Source of the DNA: Rubrobacter taiwanensis
Lineage (GTDB): Bacteria; Actinomycetota; Rubrobacteria; Rubrobacterales; Rubrobacteraceae
DNA: 64,000 bases
Direction of reading: 5' to 3'
Assembly: GCF_004337705.1 (NCBI RefSeq)
Contig: NZ_SKBU01000015.1
Location: 300,686 to 364,685 of the forward strand
Shown here: one piece after another, positions 12,511 through 21,111 of the stretch
How the letters are laid out: every line of letters begins with the position of its first letter
Position numbering within the stretch: the first letter of the stretch is position 1
Notes under the pieces: model-generated
What the model was told of the DNA's origin: nothing
What the model saw: only the letters and a program-made list of their open reading frames with translations
The model's database searches: none
Translations under genes and position numbers: made by a program

Positions 12511-13110
12511 TCAGATGGCGCGCCGGCCCGCGAAGGCTCGCCCCAGCGTAACCTCGTCGGCGTACTCCAGGTCGCCGCCTACGGGCAAACCGCTCGCCAG
12601 CGCCGTCACCTTCACCGGCAGGTCCCGCAGCTCCTCGGCTATGAACATGGCGGTCGCCTCCCCGGTGGTGTTGGGGTTGGTGGCGAGGATTATCTCCTGC
12701 GTCCCCTCCCGCCTGACGCGCTCGAGCAGCTCGGCTATGCGCAGGTCCTCGGGCTCCATGCCGTCCAGCGGCGAGAGCGCACCGCCCAGGACGTGGTAGA
12801 GCCCCCAGTACTCGGCCGTGCGCTCGATCGGACCGATATCGTAAGGGTCCTCGACGACGCAGATGATCGAGGCATCCCGCCGGGGGTCGGTGCAGATCTC
12901 GCACTCCTCGCTCTCGGTCAGGTTGAAGCACCTCCGGCAGGGCTTTATGCGCTCCTTGACCTCCCTCAGCGCCTCGGCGAGCGCGTAGGCGTCCTCCGGC
13001 CGGCCACGGACGATGTGAAACGCTATGCGCTGGGCGCTCCGGGGCCCGATGGAGGGCAGCCTGGAGAGCTCGTTTATGAGCCGTTCTACCGGTCTGGCGT
13101 ACCTGGCCAA
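12511..13110 (-). CDS. recR: Recombination mediator RecR
   Basis: RecR loads RecA on gapped DNA together with RecF/RecO. The 199-residue protein has all the parts: an N-terminal helix-hairpin-helix (LSRLPSIGPRSAQRIAFH), a four-cysteine zinc finger (CRRCFNLTESEECEIC, residues about 58-73), and a Toprim domain (ICVVEDPYDIGPIERT ... GTQEIILATNPNTTGEATAMF). It has the usual family length. Translation starts at a TTG at 13110, two bases after AAGGGG, an unusually short spacing. It lies seven bases after ybaB, in the common dnaX-ybaB-recR order. Confidence 0.97.
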   Translation of the reverse strand: MARYARPVERLINELSRLPSIGPRSAQRIAFHIVRGRPEDAYALAEALREVKERIKPCRRCFNLTESEECEICTDPRRDASIICVVEDPYDIGPIERTAEYWGLYHVLGGALSPLDGMEPEDLRIAELLERVRREGTQEIILATNPNTTGEATAMFIAEELRDLPVKVTALASGLPVGGDLEYADEVTLGRAFAGRRAI

Positions 13111-13116
13111 AGCCCC

Positions 13117-13440
13117 TTAGAGCCCCGGTATCCCCAGATCGCCCAGACCGCCGGTGATGCCCCCGAGCTTCTGCTGGGCCAGCTCCTGCGCGCTGTTCAG
13201 CGCCTCGTTGACGGCCGCCAGGATCATGTCCTGCAGCATCTCCACGTCCTCCGGGTCCACCACGTCGGGATCTATCTCGATGGAGACCAGCTCCATGCCA
13301 CCGGTCATGGTGGCCTTGACCGCGCCGCCACCGGCCGAGGCGGTCACGGTCTCGTTCTTCAGCTCTTCCTGAGCCTTCTGCATCTCGGCCTGCATCTTCT
13401 GGACCTGCTGCATCATCTTCTGCATGTTCCTGCGACCCAT
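13117..13440 (-). CDS. YbaB/EbfC nucleoid-associated protein
   Basis: A 107-residue DNA-binding protein of the YbaB/EbfC family. The N-terminal helix is methionine- and glutamine-rich ([20 protein letters not shown]), followed by the domain with [20 protein letters not shown] and a C-terminal glycine-rich tail. It binds DNA as a dimer and influences nucleoid structure and, in some bacteria, gene expression. The ATG at 13440 lies eight bases after the dnaX stop; dnaX, ybaB and recR form one transcription unit. Confidence 0.95.
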
Positions 13441-13447
13441 CGGGGTA

Positions 13448-15166
13448 TCACCTGCCTCCGTTCCGTTCGCTTCCCAGCGCGTCCCGCAGCATCTCGACGG
13501 CCTCCTGCGGGCTCTGGATTATATCATCGCCCTCTCGCCGCCCCTCGGGCTCCGCCCGGGACGGCTCCGGGCCGGGCGGCGGGGTCTGCGGCGGCTCCCG
13601 CCGGGGCTCAACCCGGACCCGCTCCGGCCCCTCTTCCGCAGGAGGGCGCGGCCCGCTCCTCCGGCCATCCTCCGCAACACTGCACCGGACCCTGACCTTC
13701 TCCCCGAACCGATCCTCTAGCACGCTCCCCAGAGCCTCCGCGTGCCGCCCGCTCTCCCCCAGCCTGACGTAGAAGGCCTGCTCCTTCGGGAAGGCCACCT
13801 CCAGCGTGCCGGCCTCGTACCTCACGGGACGGCCCTCCTGAAACACGGCCGCCGTCGGCACCTGCCGCCGGTCCCTGAGATCCTGCAGTACCGCCTGCCA
13901 CCCGGAGACGAACCGCTCCAGCCCGCCCTCAGCCGCTCCGGAACCTGGAGAGCCGGATTCCGGAGCGGCCTCAGCCCGCTCTTCCGGGGGGCGCTCGCGC
14001 GGAGCGGCCGGCGCTGCACCGCTCTCCACCGCCTTCTCCAGCCGCTCCAGACGCAGCAGCAGGCCCTCGACCGAGGGCTCCACATAATCCCGCGCGAGCT
14101 TCAGGAAGGCCAGCTCCAGTTCCAGCCGCGGGCCGCCGCCGCGCCTGATGCGCCCGGCGGTCTCCCCGAGCGTCTCGATAATCCGGACCACCTCCGAGGC
14201 CGGCACGCGCCGCGCCTGCTCCTCCAGCGTCGCCCTCTCCTCACCCCCGACCTCGGCCAGCGCTACTTCCGGCGCGTGCGGCAGCAGCATCAGCCGCTTG
14301 CAGTGCGCGAGCAGGTCCTGCAGGAACTGCCCGGGGTCCCGGCCCTCGCGCGAGATCCGGTCTACCACGCGCAGGGCGTCCCCGGCCCGGCGCTCGTTCA
14401 GCGCATCCACCGTCTCCAGCAGCACCTCCGGGCCGACGCTGCCCAGAAGCTCCCGCACCTGCGCCGCCGTCACCGGCCCCTCGGCGAAAGATGCCAGCTG
14501 GTCCAGCAGCCCTTCGGCGTCCCGGAACGAGCCGTTCCCGGCGCGCGCGATCGCGGCCAGCGCCTCCGGCTCGGCCTCGATGCCTTCGGCAGCGGCGATC
14601 TCCTCAAGCTTCTCAACCAGCGTGTCCACCCCCGGCCGCCGGAAGTCGAAGCTCTGGCACCGGCTCACGATGGTGGGCAGGACTTTGTGCTTCTCGGTGG
14701 TGGCGAGAACGAAGACCACGTGCTCCGGAGGCTCCTCCAGCATCTTGAGCAGCGCGTTGAACGCCTCGGTGGTGAGCATGTGGACCTCATCGATTATGTA
14801 GACCTTCTTCCGCCCCTGCGCGGGCGCCAGGTTCACCCGATCCCGCAGCTCCCGGATCTCGTCTATCCCCCGGTTGGAGGCGGCGTCCATCTCCAGCACA
14901 TCCACCGAAGAGTTGTTGACGACGGCCCGGCAACTCGCGCATTCACCGCACGGCTCGGGCGTCGGCCCCCGCTCGCAGTTGAGCCCCATCGCGAGCACCT
15001 TGGCCGTGCTCGTCTTGCCCGTCCCGCGCGGTCCCGCGAACAGGTAGGCGTGCGCCACTTTGCCGGTCTCGATCGCCCGCCGCAGCGTGCGCACGACGGG
15101 CTCCTGGCCCACGATCTGGCCGAACCTCCGGGGGCGCCATCTGCGGTAGAGAGAGACGTGGTCCAT
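13448..15166 (-). CDS. dnaX: DNA polymerase III subunits gamma/tau
   Basis: A 572-residue clamp-loader ATPase. It has the Walker A motif [16 protein letters not shown] (near residue 45), a zinc-binding cysteine group ([16 protein letters not shown]), the DEVH Walker B and an SRC arginine finger ([10 protein letters not shown]). A long variable region rich in Pro, Glu and Arg follows, before the C-terminal tau-like part. No obvious frameshift slippery site for a separate gamma form stood out by eye. The start ATG at 15166 lies about 80 bases downstream of the SRP RNA gene, a gene order known from Bacillus. Confidence 0.96.
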
Positions 15167-15244: not shown

Positions 15245-15516
15245 GTGCCGCGCACCCCGCCGTCGACGAACCCGGACCCGGCGAACTTCCGGCTGCCGGC
15301 TCCGGCCGGGCCGCCCCGGTGCACATGAGGTTACCCGCTTAGTGCTGCTACCTCCCGGTCCTGACACGGTTCACGGGGCCTCATTGCCCGGGACCCAACC
15401 ATCAACGCCGGCGACACCGGCTTCTACCGAACCCGGACCGCCTCGGGCGGGGATCTAGGCCCTGCTGAGGCGATCGCAGGTACAGGGCATCGCCAGCTCC
15501 CCGCTTAGCGCGGCAC
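15245..15516 (-). ncRNA. ffs: Signal recognition particle RNA, large bacterial type with Alu domain
   Basis: The conserved SRP54-binding core reads GTGAACCGTGTCAGG then ACCGGGAGGTAGCAGCACTAAG (minus strand, about 15330-15375). Upstream, at about 15460-15505, the Alu-domain block GAGCTGGCGATGCCCTGTAC followed by CAGGGCCTAGATCCCC closely matches the 5' domain of the Bacillus subtilis 271-nt scRNA. The 5' end GTGCCGCGC (15516-15508) pairs perfectly with GCGCGGCAC (15253-15245), closing the molecule at about 272 nt, and TTTTT follows as a likely terminator. A TAGAAT -10 box lies five bases upstream. Many actinobacteria have a short 4.5S-type RNA, so a full-length form is notable. Ends are inferred from the closing helix. 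Confidence 0.9.
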
Positions 15517-15521
15517 CCCCG

Positions 15522-15527
15522 ATTCTA
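15522..15527 (-). promoter_or_regulatory. -10 box of the SRP RNA gene
   Basis: TAGAAT on the minus strand, five bases ahead of the predicted 5' end of the RNA. The -35 region is weak. The remaining stretch up to 15718 contains no gene or tRNA that I can support. Confidence 0.5.
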
Positions 15528-15781: not shown

Positions 15782-16717
15782 ATGCAGCAGGAAGAGTTTG
15801 GGGCGAGGGTTGAGGCCGTCCGGCGCTTCAACCGTTTCTTCACCCGCCACATCGGGGTCTTGCGCGAGGGACTCCTGCACAGCCCCTACTCTCTCACCGA
15901 GGTCCGCATCCTGTTCGAGATCGCCAACCGCGACGAGGTCACCGCGACCGATCTCTCGCGCGAGCTGGGGTTGGATCCGGGCTACCTCAGCCGCACCCTG
16001 GCACGTCTGCGGCAGCAAGGTCTCATCGAGAAGACCCCTTCGGAGAGTGACGCCCGCCGCCGGCTCCTCTCTCTCACTCCTGAAGGCAGAGAGGAATTCT
16101 CCCTGCTAGATAAGCTCGCCAGCGAGGAGGTGGCCGAGATGCTCAGGGATCTCTCCGAGGGGGATCAGAGACGCCTCCTCGAAGCCATGCGGACCATCGA
16201 GGAGATCCTCGCCGGGAGCAAGGCCTTCAAGTTCTCGGAGCCCTTCTACCTGCGCCCGCCCGAACCCGGAGACATGGGCTGGGTGGTTCACCGGCACGGC
16301 GTTCTCTACGCCCAGGAGTACGGTTGGGACGAGCGCTTCGAGGCTTTGGTGGCCCGGATCGTCGCCGACTTCATCAACAACTTCGATCCGCAGAAAGAAC
16401 GCTGCTGGATCGCGGAGATGGAAGGCGAGGTCGCCGGCTGCGTCTTTCTGGTTAAAGAGAGCGAGACGATCGCCAAGCTAAGATTGCTCCTGGTCGAACC
16501 CGGGGCGCGGGGTCTGGGCCTGGGAAGCCGCCTCGTCCAGGAGTGCATCCGTTTCGCCAAAAGCCGCAGCTACAAAAAGCTCACACTCTGGACCAACAGC
16601 GTGCTGGAGGCAGCTCGACACATCTACGAGAAACACGGGTTCGAGCTCGCCAAAGAAGAAGAGCACCACAGCTTCGGGCACAGGCTCACCGGAGAGTACT
16701 GGGAACTTGAGCTCTGA
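15782..16717 (+). CDS. MarR-type regulator fused to GNAT N-acetyltransferase
   Basis: A 311-residue two-domain protein. Residues 1-145 are a MarR winged helix (LTEVRILFEIANRDEVTATDLSREL, recognition DPGYLSRTLARLRQQGLI, wing SDARRRLLSLTPEG). Residues 155-311 are a GNAT acetyltransferase with the acetyl-CoA loop VEPGARGLGLGSRLVQECI and the late motif WTNSVLEAARHIYEKHGFEL. This fusion is widespread in bacteria; the DNA target and acetyl acceptor are generally unknown. AAAGGAGGAGG precedes the ATG at 15782, one of the best ribosome sites in the window. It stands alone between the SRP RNA and the tRNA-Ser genes. Confidence 0.9.
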   Translation: MQQEEFGARVEAVRRFNRFFTRHIGVLREGLLHSPYSLTEVRILFEIANRDEVTATDLSRELGLDPGYLSRTLARLRQQGLIEKTPSESDARRRLLSLTPEGREEFSLLDKLASEEVAEMLRDLSEGDQRRLLEAMRTIEEILAGSKAFKFSEPFYLRPPEPGDMGWVVHRHGVLYAQEYGWDERFEALVARIVADFINNFDPQKERCWIAEMEGEVAGCVFLVKESETIAKLRLLLVEPGARGLGLGSRLVQECIRFAKSRSYKKLTLWTNSVLEAARHIYEKHGFELAKEEEHHSFGHRLTGEYWELEL

Positions 16718-16728
16718 AGCAGTAAGAG

Positions 16729-16819
16729 CGGAGAGGGTGGGATTCGAACCCACGAGGCGGCTACAAACCGCCTACGCGATTTCCAGTCGCGCTCCTTAGG
16801 CCAGCTCGGACACCTCTCC
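16729..16819 (-). tRNA. tRNA-Ser (anticodon GGA)
   Basis: Acceptor stem GGAGAGG pairs with CCTCTCC. The anticodon arm is GCGCGACTGGAAATCGCG with GGA in the loop, followed by the long variable arm of a class II tRNA (GGCGGTTTGTAGCCGCC) and the T-arm GGGTTCGAATCCC. No CCA is encoded. Confidence 0.96.
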
Positions 16820-16861
16820 GCGCGAGTACAGAGTTTACCAGAGATCAAACCCCGGCGAGAG

Positions 16862-16951
16862 CGGAGAGGGAGGGATTCGAACCCTCGGTGCCGGGGTAAC
16901 CGACACAACGGTTTTCGAGACCGCCGCATTCGTCCGCTCTGCCACCTCTCC
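16862..16951 (-). tRNA. tRNA-Ser (anticodon CGA)
   Basis: Acceptor GGAGAGG/CCTCTCC, anticodon loop CTCGAAA giving CGA, long variable arm (GTCGGTTACCCCGGCAC), T-arm GGGTTCGAATCCC. No CCA is encoded. It is about 40 bases upstream of the GGA isoacceptor and probably co-transcribed with it. The 180 bases beyond, up to the nrdJ terminator, contain nothing else that I recognise. Confidence 0.96.
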
Positions 16952-17134: not shown

Positions 17135-19423
17135 TTAGCTACACTTGGAGTAGCCGCAGGAGTGACAGACCACGCAGCCCTCCTGGCGCGTCAAGCCGCT
17201 GCCGCATTCGGGGCAGGCCCCGATGACCGGCAGCTTGCTCTCCTCTGCGACCGCGTTCTCTTCGATGAGGTAGTGCTCGGCCATGGCCTTTGCGACGCCG
17301 TCGGGCACCGAGAGCACGGCATTGGGGCCGACTCCGGCCGGGTGACCGTCCTGGATACCCCGCAGCTGGTGTACGATCTCTGCGGGTGTGGCTCCATGGG
17401 TCATGGCGAGCGAGATCATGCGCCCCAGGGCGTCGGAGAAGGCGGCGGCGGTGCCGCCCGGCTTGCCCAGGACCACGAAGCACTCGCGCGGGCCAAACTC
17501 ATCGTCGTTCATCGTGACGTAGAGCGGGCCGTGACCGGTCCTGACCTTCTTAGTCACTCCGGAGAGGGTGCGCGGCCGGCCGTTGCGGGCCTCGGCCAGG
17601 GAGACGTGCTTGACCTGTGGCTCGTGGGAGCTCTTCTCGGTCTTGCCCGTGCTGAGAACCTGGGCCTCTCTTGATCCGTCACGGTAGACGGCGATGCCCT
17701 TGCAGCCGGTCTTGTAGGCCAGCATGTAGGCCTCGCCCACGTCCTCCGGCGTGGCTTCGTTGGGCAGGTTGATCGTCTTCGAGATACCCATCGAGGTGTA
17801 CTTCTGGAAGGCCGCCTGCATCCTGACGTGCCACTCGGGCGTGATGTCGTGGGAGGTGACCCACACCCGGCGCACGTCTTCAGGCACCTCGGGGATCTCG
17901 CGCACGCTGCCGTGCTCGGCCACCTTCTGCATCAGTTCCTCGGAGTAGAAGCCCCGCTCCTTTGCGAGCCTCACGAACTCGGGGTTTACGTCCGGCAGCT
18001 CCATGTCCGCCTGCCGCCGCATGAACGCCACGGCGAACAGGGGTTCTATGCCGCCCGAGCAGCCCGCGATGATCGAGATCGTGCCCGTAGGGGCTATGGT
18101 GGTAACGGTGGCGTTGCGCACCCTGTCGCCTCTGGCCTCGTGCAGCGAGCCCTCGTAGTTGGCGAACACTCCGCGCTCCTCGGCCAGCTTGCGGGAGGCC
18201 TCCCACGCCTCGTCATCGATGAACTTCATCACCCTCTCGGCGAAGGCGAGGCCCTCCTCCGAGTCGTAGGTGATGCCGAGCTTGATCAGGGCGTCGGCAA
18301 AGCCCATAACCCCGAGCCCGATGCGGCGGTTGCCCTTGCTCATCTGCTCGATCTCGGGCAGCGGGTAGTTGTTCATCTCGATCACGTTGTCCAGGAAGCG
18401 GACCGCCGTGTGCACCGCCTCGCGCAGATCCTCCCAGTCGACATGGGTGGAGCCGGCCGTGTTGCCGTCCGCCAGAGAGGCCCGCTCCCCACTGGAGGTC
18501 CTGACGAACCGCTCCAGGTTGATCGACCCCAGATTGCACGAGTCGTAGGGAGGCAGGTGCGCCTCCGAACAGGGGTTCGTGGACTCTATGGGAAACTGCG
18601 GCGTGGGGTTTGTGGCGTTGATCCGGTCTATGAAGATCACACCCGGCTCGCCGTTCAACCACGCCCCCTCAACGATCTTCCGGAAGAGGTCGCGGGCCCG
18701 CACGGTTCTCACGACCTCGCCGTTCCTGGGGTTCACCAGACCGAAGTCATCGTCCCCGTCCACAGCCTCCATGAACTCGTCGGTGATCGCGACCGAGATG
18801 TTGAAGTTGTTTATCTTCTCGTTGTCGCGCTTGCACTCTATGAACTCCTCGATGTCCGGGTGGTCCACCCGGAGGATGCCCATGTTCGCCCCCCTCCGAG
18901 TGCCTCCCTGCTTGATCTTGTCGGTCGAAGCGTCGTAGATGCTCATGAATGAAACCGGCCCGCTGGAGACGCCCATCGTGCTCTTCACGATGTCGTTCTT
19001 GGGCCTCAGACGCGAGAAGGCAAACCCCGTCCCGCCCCCGCTCTTGTGGATGATGGCCTGGTGCTTGAGCGTGTCGTAGATGCCGTCGATCGAATCCTCA
19101 ACCGGCAGGACGAAGCACGCCGAGAGCTGCTGCAGCTCCCTGCCGGCGTTCATGAGCGTGGGCGAATTGGGCATGAAGCGCCTATCAAGCATCAGCTGGA
19201 GAAACTTCTCGCTCCACTCCTCGTAGAGCCTCCGGCCCTCCTCACCCTCCTTGAAGCACAACTCCCCCTCGGCGATGTTGGACGCCACCCGGCGGAACAT
19301 GTCTATCGGTTCCTCGATGGCCTCGCCCCGCTCGTTCTTCTTCAGATAGCGCTTCTTCAAAATCGCCAGCGCGTTGTCCGTGAGCTCAATGTCCGTAAGC
19401 CGCTCTCTCCGCTTCTGCTCCAT
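17135..19423 (-). CDS. nrdJ: Adenosylcobalamin-dependent (class II) ribonucleotide reductase
   Basis: A 762-residue NrdJ that reduces ribonucleotides with a cobalamin-derived radical and needs neither oxygen nor a second subunit. Visible motifs: FMPNSPTLMNAG and SACFVLPVEDS (first redox cysteine), SGGGTGFAFSRLRP, the active-site STNPCSEAHLPPYDSCNLGSINL-type segment (residues about 285-307), GIGVMGFADAL-like LGVMGFADALIKLG, and a C-terminal zinc-ribbon CPECG...CVVCHSCGYSKCS that acts as thioredoxin-like redox tail. GGGGAGAAG precedes the ATG. The gene follows nrdR by 11 bases. No cobalamin riboswitch was seen upstream; control is probably by NrdR. Confidence 0.96.
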   Translation of the reverse strand: MEQKRRERLTDIELTDNALAILKKRYLKKNERGEAIEEPIDMFRRVASNIAEGELCFKEGEEGRRLYEEWSEKFLQLMLDRRFMPNSPTLMNAGRELQQLSACFVLPVEDSIDGIYDTLKHQAIIHKSGGGTGFAFSRLRPKNDIVKSTMGVSSGPVSFMSIYDASTDKIKQGGTRRGANMGILRVDHPDIEEFIECKRDNEKINNFNISVAITDEFMEAVDGDDDFGLVNPRNGEVVRTVRARDLFRKIVEGAWLNGEPGVIFIDRINATNPTPQFPIESTNPCSEAHLPPYDSCNLGSINLERFVRTSSGERASLADGNTAGSTHVDWEDLREAVHTAVRFLDNVIEMNNYPLPEIEQMSKGNRRIGLGVMGFADALIKLGITYDSEEGLAFAERVMKFIDDEAWEASRKLAEERGVFANYEGSLHEARGDRVRNATVTTIAPTGTISIIAGCSGGIEPLFAVAFMRRQADMELPDVNPEFVRLAKERGFYSEELMQKVAEHGSVREIPEVPEDVRRVWVTSHDITPEWHVRMQAAFQKYTSMGISKTINLPNEATPEDVGEAYMLAYKTGCKGIAVYRDGSREAQVLSTGKTEKSSHEPQVKHVSLAEARNGRPRTLSGVTKKVRTGHGPLYVTMNDDEFGPRECFVVLGKPGGTAAAFSDALGRMISLAMTHGATPAEIVHQLRGIQDGHPAGVGPNAVLSVPDGVAKAMAEHYLIEENAVAEESKLPVIGACPECGSGLTRQEGCVVCHSCGYSKCS

Positions 19424-19434
19424 TCGCTTCTCCC

Positions 19435-19905
19435 CTACCTCCCGTTTGTCGCGTTCGAGCCCGCAAGCTTGACCAGCTCCGAGCGAAACTGATCCACATC
19501 CGTGTACTGCCGGTAGACCGAGGCGAACCGCATGTACGCCACCATGTCCAACTTCCTGAGCCGCAACAGAGCCATCTCCCCTATGCGCCGCGAAGTGACC
19601 TCATGACGCCGCCGCTCCCGCAACCCCGCCTCTATCTCATCAACGATCTCCTCAATCTCTTCCTCCCCTATCCCCCGCTTGGTACAGGCCTTCATCAAAC
19701 CCGCCCGGAGCTTCTCCCGCCGGAACGGCTCCCGCCCACCATCGCGCTTCACAACCGTAAGCCGTAACGGCTCCCGGCGCTCGTACGTGGTGAAACGCTC
19801 GCCACAACTCAGACACTCCCGCCGCCTCCGTACAGCGTCCTTGGACTCGGAAAGACGCGAGTCTATTACTTTGGTATCCTCAAAGTCACAGTAAGGACAG
19901 CGCAT
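19435..19905 (-). CDS. nrdR: Transcriptional repressor NrdR
   Basis: NrdR is the zinc-ribbon/ATP-cone repressor of ribonucleotide reductase genes. The chosen start gives the standard N-terminus [17 protein letters not shown]; a GTG/ATG further upstream (19938) would add 11 unrelated residues. The zinc ribbon is CPYC...CLSCGERF (residues 3-37), and the ATP-cone follows at [20 protein letters not shown]. The length of 156 residues is typical. The gene leads the nrdR-nrdJ operon and two candidate NrdR boxes lie immediately upstream, so it should regulate itself and nrdJ. Confidence 0.96.
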
Positions 19906-19930
19906 CTCAAGAACTCCAGGCCCTCTCCTC

Positions 19931-19975
19931 AACACCACATCTGGTACGGGAAAAACCTAACACACCACATTTTGG
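19931..19975 (-). promoter_or_regulatory. Pair of candidate NrdR boxes
   Basis: AACACCACATCTGGT (19931-19945) and CACACCACATTTTGG (19961-19975) share ACACCACAT and lie exactly 30 bases apart, about three helical turns. NrdR operators are known as two such boxes about 31 bases apart, so this fits cooperative NrdR binding over the nrdR-nrdJ promoter. Confidence 0.7.
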
Positions 19976-20233
19976 AATCCAATAGCCAGTATTTAACCCT
20001 TTTGTTCAACTTAACGTACCGCCAGCGCTCCACATCCCCATTTCTTAGCCGACTTCAGCCCTGCGGAACCCGGCGAAAATTTTTTCGCGAATTTTTTTCA
20101 CCTGTACCAGATCTCGAGAAATCTCCAGCAAAACGAATACCTTTATCTGAAGGAGAGACGAATACCTGAAGCCGTGGTTTATGAATGCCGAACACCACGC
20201 CTATACATTGTACTATAACTTCAGGTTTAGTAT
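19976..20233. other. AT-rich intergenic stretch between nrdR and tadA
   Basis: No gene is supported here. It holds long A/T tracts (AATTTTTTTC near 20091) and a short direct repeat ACGAATACCT near 20135 and 20159. It probably contains the nrdR promoter and the downstream region of tadA, whose terminator I could not identify. Confidence 0.4.
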
Positions 20234-20707
20234 CTATCTGTTTCTATGTGTTTTGCGGCGGGTACGGAAGAAGCTCTGCAGGAGGTCGGCGGCTTCTTTC
20301 TGGAGTACGCCGGGGGTTACGGGGAAGGTGTGGTTGAGACGGGAGTCTCCCGGGAGGTTGTGGAGGGTTCCGGCGAAGCCGGCTTTGGGGTCTGGGGCTC
20401 CGTAGACCAGGCGTGAGATGCGGGCGGCGTGGGCGGCTCCGGCGCACATGGGGCAGGGTTCGAGGGTGGAGTAGAGGGTGCAGCCGGCCAGCCGCCATCC
20501 GCCGAGCTTCTCCGCGGCGCGCCGGATGGCGAGCAGTTCGGCGTGGGCTGTGGGGTCTCCGGTGGTCTCCCGTTCGTTGGAGGCGACCGCGAGTATCTCT
20601 CTGCCGCGCACCACGACGGCGCCGACGGGGACTTCGCCCCGTTCGGCGGCCCGGCGGGCGGCCTCCAGGGCGAGCTGCATCATCTCCGTGTCGAGGGGCT
20701 CGCTCAC
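20234..20707 (-). CDS. tadA: tRNA-specific adenosine deaminase
   Basis: TadA converts adenosine 34 to inosine in tRNA-Arg(ACG). The zinc and catalytic motif HAE (DPTAHAELLAIRRAA) and the second motif PCPMCAGAAHAARI are both present in a chain of about 157 residues. I start it at the GTG at 20707, whose GTGA overlaps the stop of the arsR gene; GGAAGAAAG lies upstream. A longer frame reaches 20833 but only adds residues antisense-like to arsR. Its place at the end of an arsenic operon is odd for a housekeeping enzyme and implies translational coupling to arsR. Confidence 0.93.
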   Translation of the reverse strand: MSEPLDTEMMQLALEAARRAAERGEVPVGAVVVRGREILAVASNERETTGDPTAHAELLAIRRAAEKLGGWRLAGCTLYSTLEPCPMCAGAAHAARISRLVYGAPDPKAGFAGTLHNLPGDSRLNHTFPVTPGVLQKEAADLLQSFFRTRRKTHRNR

Positions 20708-21111
20708 GGGGCTTTCTTCCGGACTTCGCCGCCGGGGGAGGAACCGTTTCGGGGTGCCGGCACCTGCAGCAACCCGGCGGTCTCGCGGACGAGCTCCTGC
20801 GCCACGGGCCGGTTCAGAGAGTAGAAGGACCACCGGCCGCGCTTCTCCTCCCTTACCAGGCCGGCCTCCTTCAGCCTGCCGAGGTGGTAGGAGACCTTCG
20901 ACTGGGCCATTCCGAAGTAGGTCACGAACTCGCAGACGCAGATGCCGTCGCCCTCACCCCGGGCCGGGACCCCACCGCCGGCGAAGCCGCAGCAGCCCCG
21001 GCCGGCGGCCATCATAGCGAGCATCCGCACCCGGATGGGGTCCGAGATCGCGCGCCCGAGCGCGACGAGCTTTTCGACCCGCTCCTCGGGCATGATCGGC
21101 GCTTCCGCCAC
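20704..21111 (-). CDS. ArsR-type metalloregulator with cysteine-rich loop
   Basis: A winged-helix repressor of about 135 residues. SDPIRVRMLAMMAAG is the entry helix, CVCEFVTYFGMAQSKVSYHLGRLKEAG contains the CxC and recognition helix, and REEKRGRWSFYSLN is the wing. Extra cysteines (GRGCCGFAGGG before ICVCEF) give a likely trivalent-arsenic site. I chose the GTG at 21111, five bases after GGAG and overlapping the arsM stop region; an ATG at 21093 is the alternative. It presumably binds the palindrome upstream of arsM and represses the arsM-arsR-tadA unit. Confidence 0.87.
   Translation of the reverse strand: MAEAPIMPEERVEKLVALGRAISDPIRVRMLAMMAAGRGCCGFAGGGVPARGEGDGICVCEFVTYFGMAQSKVSYHLGRLKEAGLVREEKRGRWSFYSLNRPVAQELVRETAGLLQVPAPRNGSSPGGEVRKKAP

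Follow-up and report, generated by a model that had tools for sequence, protein, structure and literature searches.

The window analyzed here, a 64,000-nucleotide stretch of the Rubrobacter taiwanensis genome, contains on its minus strand an SRP RNA gene and, downstream of it, dnaX, ebfC and recR (Table 1). The initial annotation had placed the RNA upstream of dnaX as in Bacillus, and this arrangement held, with all three downstream genes on the strand of the RNA. In 28 of 30 loci from the host family and in 23 of 30 high-scoring loci from other families, the RNA is followed by dnaX in the same orientation, and records from Bacillus, Paenibacillus, Staphylococcus and Thermoleophilia show this succession too. 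Positions 17135-20833, upstream of the RNA gene, hold the gene for a large ribonucleotide reductase that has a TSCPD domain, together with an nrdR-like gene and a deaminase gene resembling tadA (20234-20833); the position of the last recalls that of tadA in the Bacillus order. In B. subtilis, tRNA-Ser, tadA, scr, dnaX, yaaK (ebfC) and recR lie close together; the host region has the same elements, but with insertions.

Table 1. Features of the SRP RNA locus and its neighbors, in window coordinates.
Feature	Position	Strand	Basis or remark
recR	12511..13110	-	Pfam PF13662, PF21176, PF02132
ebfC/ybaB	13117..13440	-	Pfam PF02575
dnaX (DNA polymerase III gamma/tau), first gene after the SRP RNA	13448..15166	-	PF13177, PF12169, PF22608, PF20964
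T5 run adjoining the closing helix	15240..15244	-	possible transcript end; putative function
Large SRP RNA gene (scr/ffs-type, Alu and S domains)	15245..15516	-	272 nt; RF01854, closing helix, family alignment
3' arm of closing helix H1, GCGCGGCAC	15245..15253	-	read directly
S domain (Ffh-binding-type hairpin, GUCAGG...AGCAGC core, GGGA tetraloop)	15301..15400	-	RF00169, 69.3 bits
Helix 4 loop, UCGCC, 3' pseudoknot half	15469..15473	-	pairs with 15490-15494; covariation
UGUA motif between helices 3 and 4	15481..15484	-	RF01854 and family alignments
Helix 3 loop, GGCGA, 5' pseudoknot half	15490..15494	-	pairs 5/5 with 15469-15473; covariation
5' arm of closing helix H1, GUGCCGCGC	15508..15516	-	perfect 9-bp complement of 15245-15253
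Putative -10 element TAGAAT, preceded by GG	15522..15527	-	TANAMT in 30/30 family loci
MarR-type helix-turn-helix fused to GNAT acetyltransferase	15782..16717	+	Pfam; between tRNA-Ser and SRP gene
Two tRNA-Ser genes (GGA, CGA), upstream	16728..16951	-	ARAGORN

The RNA had initially been described as a full-length, Bacillus-type SRP RNA. When the minus strand was searched with cmscan, the Bacteria_large_SRP model RF01854 matched end to end (15513-15248, model positions 1-256 of 256) with 162.2 bits and an E value of 2.5e-26, compared to a gathering score of 60 bits, and it scored above the overlapping match to the small-SRP model, which belongs to its clan; support was thus not confined to the small model. 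Read directly, 15516-15245 of the minus strand is 5'-GUGCCGCGCUAAGCGGGGAGCUGGCGAUGCCCUGUACCUGCGAUCGCCUCAGCAGGGCC...GGGGUGCGCGGCAC-3'. All nine bases of 15516-15508 pair with 15253-15245, as had been noted from the sequence, and a T5 run follows at 15244-15240; the coordinates given initially are therefore exact. A search of the genome (3.04 Mb, 99.7% complete) returned a single match for each model, that of RF00169 nested within that of RF01854, and neither model revealed a second SRP RNA elsewhere in these 3.04 Mb. The minimum-energy fold of the RNA is -153.3 kcal/mol (z -2.7 relative to shuffled sequences). Furthermore, 32 of the 40 host-family genomes carried the large SRP RNA, the remaining ones being fragmented assemblies of 240-640 contigs. 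RF01854 scores here were 140-170 bits versus 235-252 bits in Bacillus relatives, probably because of high G+C content and a diverged helix 5. Together, these covariance-model data confirmed the host RNA as a bacterial large SRP RNA of the long form, including the Alu domain. A small SRP RNA as the sole form would lack the Alu helices, which by alignment are present and conserved. As RF01854 recognizes the RNA easily, it belongs to an already known kind.

The SRP54-binding core recognized at the outset was recovered as the RF00169 match inside the large RNA, and the S domain is by this model of the Ffh-binding type. The genome encodes one Ffh and one HU protein, the latter with a plain HU-type domain. 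HBsu is the Alu-binding partner in B. subtilis (PMC8230904), making the host HU a candidate HBsu-like partner, and Ffh is likewise a possible partner.

We next considered the Alu domain. The Alu domains of bacteria and archaea, as seen in crystal structures, contain a five-base-pair pseudoknot and helix H1, five pairs being the number given for bacteria; a UGU motif has also been described (PMC8137916). In agreement with the Bacillus-like pattern originally proposed for this block, H1, H3/H4, UGUA and a five-pair pseudoknot were all found, with the UGU motif in the context CCCUGUACC (15487-15479, minus strand). We aligned 60 large SRP RNAs, 30 from the host family and 30 from other families of Actinomycetota; UGUA or UGAA occupied the motif site in nearly all of them, and across the 30 host-family loci the Alu block was among the best conserved parts. 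The H3 and H4 loops were complementary over five bases, as AGCGG:CCGCU in 30/30 RNAs from other families and as GGCGA:UCGCC (26/30) or GGCGU:ACGCC (3/30) in the host family, where the remaining RNA pairs at four of five positions. The register within the loop was here chosen for best pairing, which favors the pseudoknot, but loops swapped between RNAs of different loop type never reached five pairs; the match between loops is therefore type-specific. Sampling more families and Bacillota added GGCGG:CCGCC, AGGGG:CCUCU, CGGGG:CCUCG and CGUGG:CCACU.

Among 44 distinct sequences, both sides changed at three of the five pseudoknot pairs (A-U/G-C/C-G, C-G/G-U/U-A and G-C/A-U/U-A), and the first pair was non-standard in two rows. 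The structure of H3 plus pseudoknot was paired in 99.5% of cells, none of 500 shuffles reached the covariation score, and slid registers were paired in 50-69%; these results lean to the pseudoknot, since the segments were excised by patterns naming the partner letters. The inner helix-3 pairs drawn by Rfam, considered in place of the pseudoknot, covaried weakly and were paired in just 85.5% of cells, and were therefore rejected. The minimum-energy fold draws other pairs in the Alu region than the H3/H4 pseudoknot structure, as expected because pseudoknots lie outside the folding model. In the 5' part of one SRP RNA (L222; G245:C9, family f63), the Alu domain seems to include an additional hairpin, CCCTACTTTAAAGTGGGG (about 20 nt), which lies at the three-way junction and separates helix 3 from helix 4.

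A generic sigma-70 promoter scan at the locus returned nothing, and a -10-like box, 6 nt upstream of the Alu 5' end, emerged only when relatives were compared. TANAMT stands just 5' of the RNA in all 30 host-family loci, mostly after G, with flanks that are otherwise unlike. Several short-form loci, read by eye, have a similar box directly before the short hairpin. The conserved position of the box before the Alu 5' end suggests that the Alu block is very probably transcribed as part of the RNA. T-runs after the closing helix are also found in most host-family loci, and given that the helix and T5 adjoin, the long-range helix H1 might also act as the stem of a terminator.

To what extent the long form is shared within the phylum was examined in 397 genomes of Actinomycetota. 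RF01854 exceeded its cut-off in 269 of them, a count that includes short RNAs passing 60 bits. Counted by hand, about 213 genomes had a strong match (E at or below about 1e-15, or a large RNA cut by a contig end), about 107 had a weak, short-type match and 77 had none; single absences are weak evidence, since the genome search reported neither RF01854 nor RF00169 in the B. subtilis control, owner of the founding large SRP RNA. The long form is therefore present in about half of the sampled genomes; it is not peculiar to the host lineage and is common among deep actinobacteria. All 30 genomes taken from the weak and no-match groups carried a small SRP RNA with a weak or no RF01854 match, and a motif scan found the Alu loop pattern absent from those short-form loci whose core could be located (7-8 loci were not parsed by the motif). 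In a DnaX scan, the best 80 matches listed were mostly from Bacillota and Chloroflexi, and three actinobacterial-titled records among them (L095, L096 and L126) had an SRP match.

Both forms also occur within one family (f43), in which genome G321 has the short form and G112 and G176 the long form. The G321 RNA (L206/L081; C33:96179-96277) is about 97 nt long, has a perfect 9-bp closing helix and lies directly before dnaX. A split Alu RNA encoded elsewhere in G321 was rejected: an Alu query from a relative matched G112 and G176, but nothing in G321. In many short-form loci dnaX is directly downstream and tRNA-Ser nearby, and these retained neighbors make a single ancestral locus the most likely origin of the long and short forms.

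We used the dnaX, ebfC and recR genes, whose tree follows the locus because they adjoin the RNA, to reconstruct its history. On this DnaX-EbfC-RecR tree (76 rows, quick search), short forms were nested among long ones and seven changes between long and short form are needed, five of them, by our reading, inside Actinomycetota; the well-supported branches alone force three. A single shared Alu loss in Actinomycetota was rejected: forcing the 20 short-form rows of the phylum, a group chosen after the tree was seen, into one clade was 407 log-likelihood units worse (p-AU 5.8e-5). With the polarity of change set by Bacillota as outgroup, the Alu domain is likely ancestral to Actinomycetota and was probably deleted several times independently at one conserved locus, by our reading of the best tree five times within the phylum, with one case inside a single family. 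The short RNA of G321, where the other sampled family members are long, reads as a recent Alu loss.

The reverse polarity, in which Actinomycetota began with the short form and several lineages regained the Alu domain, draws on the uncertainty of the true outgroup of the phylum and on the short form that stands beside dnaX in Thermodesulfovibrionales and Deltaproteobacteria records. We consider it very unlikely: the same 5' and 3' parts of the Alu domain, with homologous sequence, would have to be gained repeatedly at one locus, the Alu letters of Bacillota can be aligned with those of Actinomycetota, and the case within a single family reads as a deletion. Horizontal transfer of the gene from Bacillota would account for an architecture and gene order that match Bacillus relatives. 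However, in the SRP RNA tree Bacillota fall on one side of a branch (84/89) and the host family lies inside a set of 31 Actinomycetota rows (95/92); the flanking-gene tree likewise unites the host family with other Actinomycetota, the host pseudoknot letters are unlike those of sampled Bacillota, and the gene order is common to short-form Actinomycetota too, so that such a transfer is exceedingly improbable. That the small hairpin alone functions, the Alu-like block being untranscribed or decaying DNA, fits the fact that RF00169 by itself passes its cut-off within the locus and that some other Actinomycetota have just the small form, but is hardly credible given the conservation of the block in 30 family loci, the compensatory changes that maintain its pseudoknot and the -10-like box, which precedes the Alu 5' end here and the short hairpin in several short-form loci.

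Taken together, the trees of the RNA and of its neighboring genes favor an ancestor with the Alu domain, vertical transmission from it and repeated loss among its descendants. Between the two readings offered initially, an ancestral feature kept or a deviant lineage, the RNA tree and the nested short forms speak for retention; the host lineage is not exceptional, as many families of the phylum have the long form at the same locus.

We show, at the level of sequence, the identity, fold and locus of the host SRP RNA, and its function can be proposed from B. subtilis, where an Alu domain docked at the factor-binding site is known to block elongation ('dock and block'; PMC8137916) and where cryo-EM has been performed with 6S RNA (PMC8881573). 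By homology the host Alu domain would act as a brake. The S domain would hold Ffh (SRP54), which would bind signal sequences of membrane and secreted proteins leaving the ribosome, while the Alu domain, closed by H1 and the H3-H4 pseudoknot, would reach the factor-binding site of the ribosome and slow elongation until the ribosome reaches the membrane. The long form most likely came down by vertical inheritance from an ancestor of the sampled Actinomycetota that had the Alu domain, and elsewhere in the phylum it was shortened several times to the small form. As a whole, this explanation, a sole SRP RNA gene of the long form with a proposed Alu brake, inherited vertically and shortened several times elsewhere in the phylum, is in our judgment almost certainly correct.

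The host RNA itself is expected biology, an unremarkable representative of a known family; we regard repeated Alu loss within Actinomycetota as the more interesting by-product. A 2006 review stated that Actinobacteria all lack the Alu domain (PMC1586193), a statement that the long form in Actinomycetota, as identified by sequence models, contradicts; Gram-positive bacteria typically have an Alu domain according to a 2014 paper, which also gives the proposal that E. coli compensates for the missing domain via Shine-Dalgarno pauses and reports for B. subtilis pauses that fall 45-65 codons beyond the first membrane segment (PMC4359368). If repeated loss is true, close relatives with and without an elongation brake exist, which bears on why some bacteria retain the SRP Alu domain and others manage without it. 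Families of Actinomycetota with both forms would provide matched pairs in which the effect of brake loss could be read from ribosome profiling and from codon or Shine-Dalgarno-like patterns.

Compared to known systems, the host RNA is closest to the Bacteria_large_SRP family and B. subtilis scRNA (6S), with which it shares the 1-256 model alignment, H1, H3/H4, the UGU motif, the five-base-pair loop-loop pseudoknot, the S domain and the place before dnaX-ebfC-recR. It differs from them in a G+C-rich helix 5, a GGGA rather than GGAA tetraloop and the pseudoknot GGCGA:UCGCC, the commonest being AGCGG:CCGCU. In contrast to the Bacillus order, a plus-strand MarR-GNAT gene separates tRNA-Ser from the SRP gene. 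With the small, 4.5S-type RNA of other Actinomycetota (Bacteria_small_SRP, RF00169) it has in common the S-domain hairpin and, often, dnaX downstream and tRNA-Ser nearby, whereas that form is without H1-H4 (Alu) and much of helix 5.
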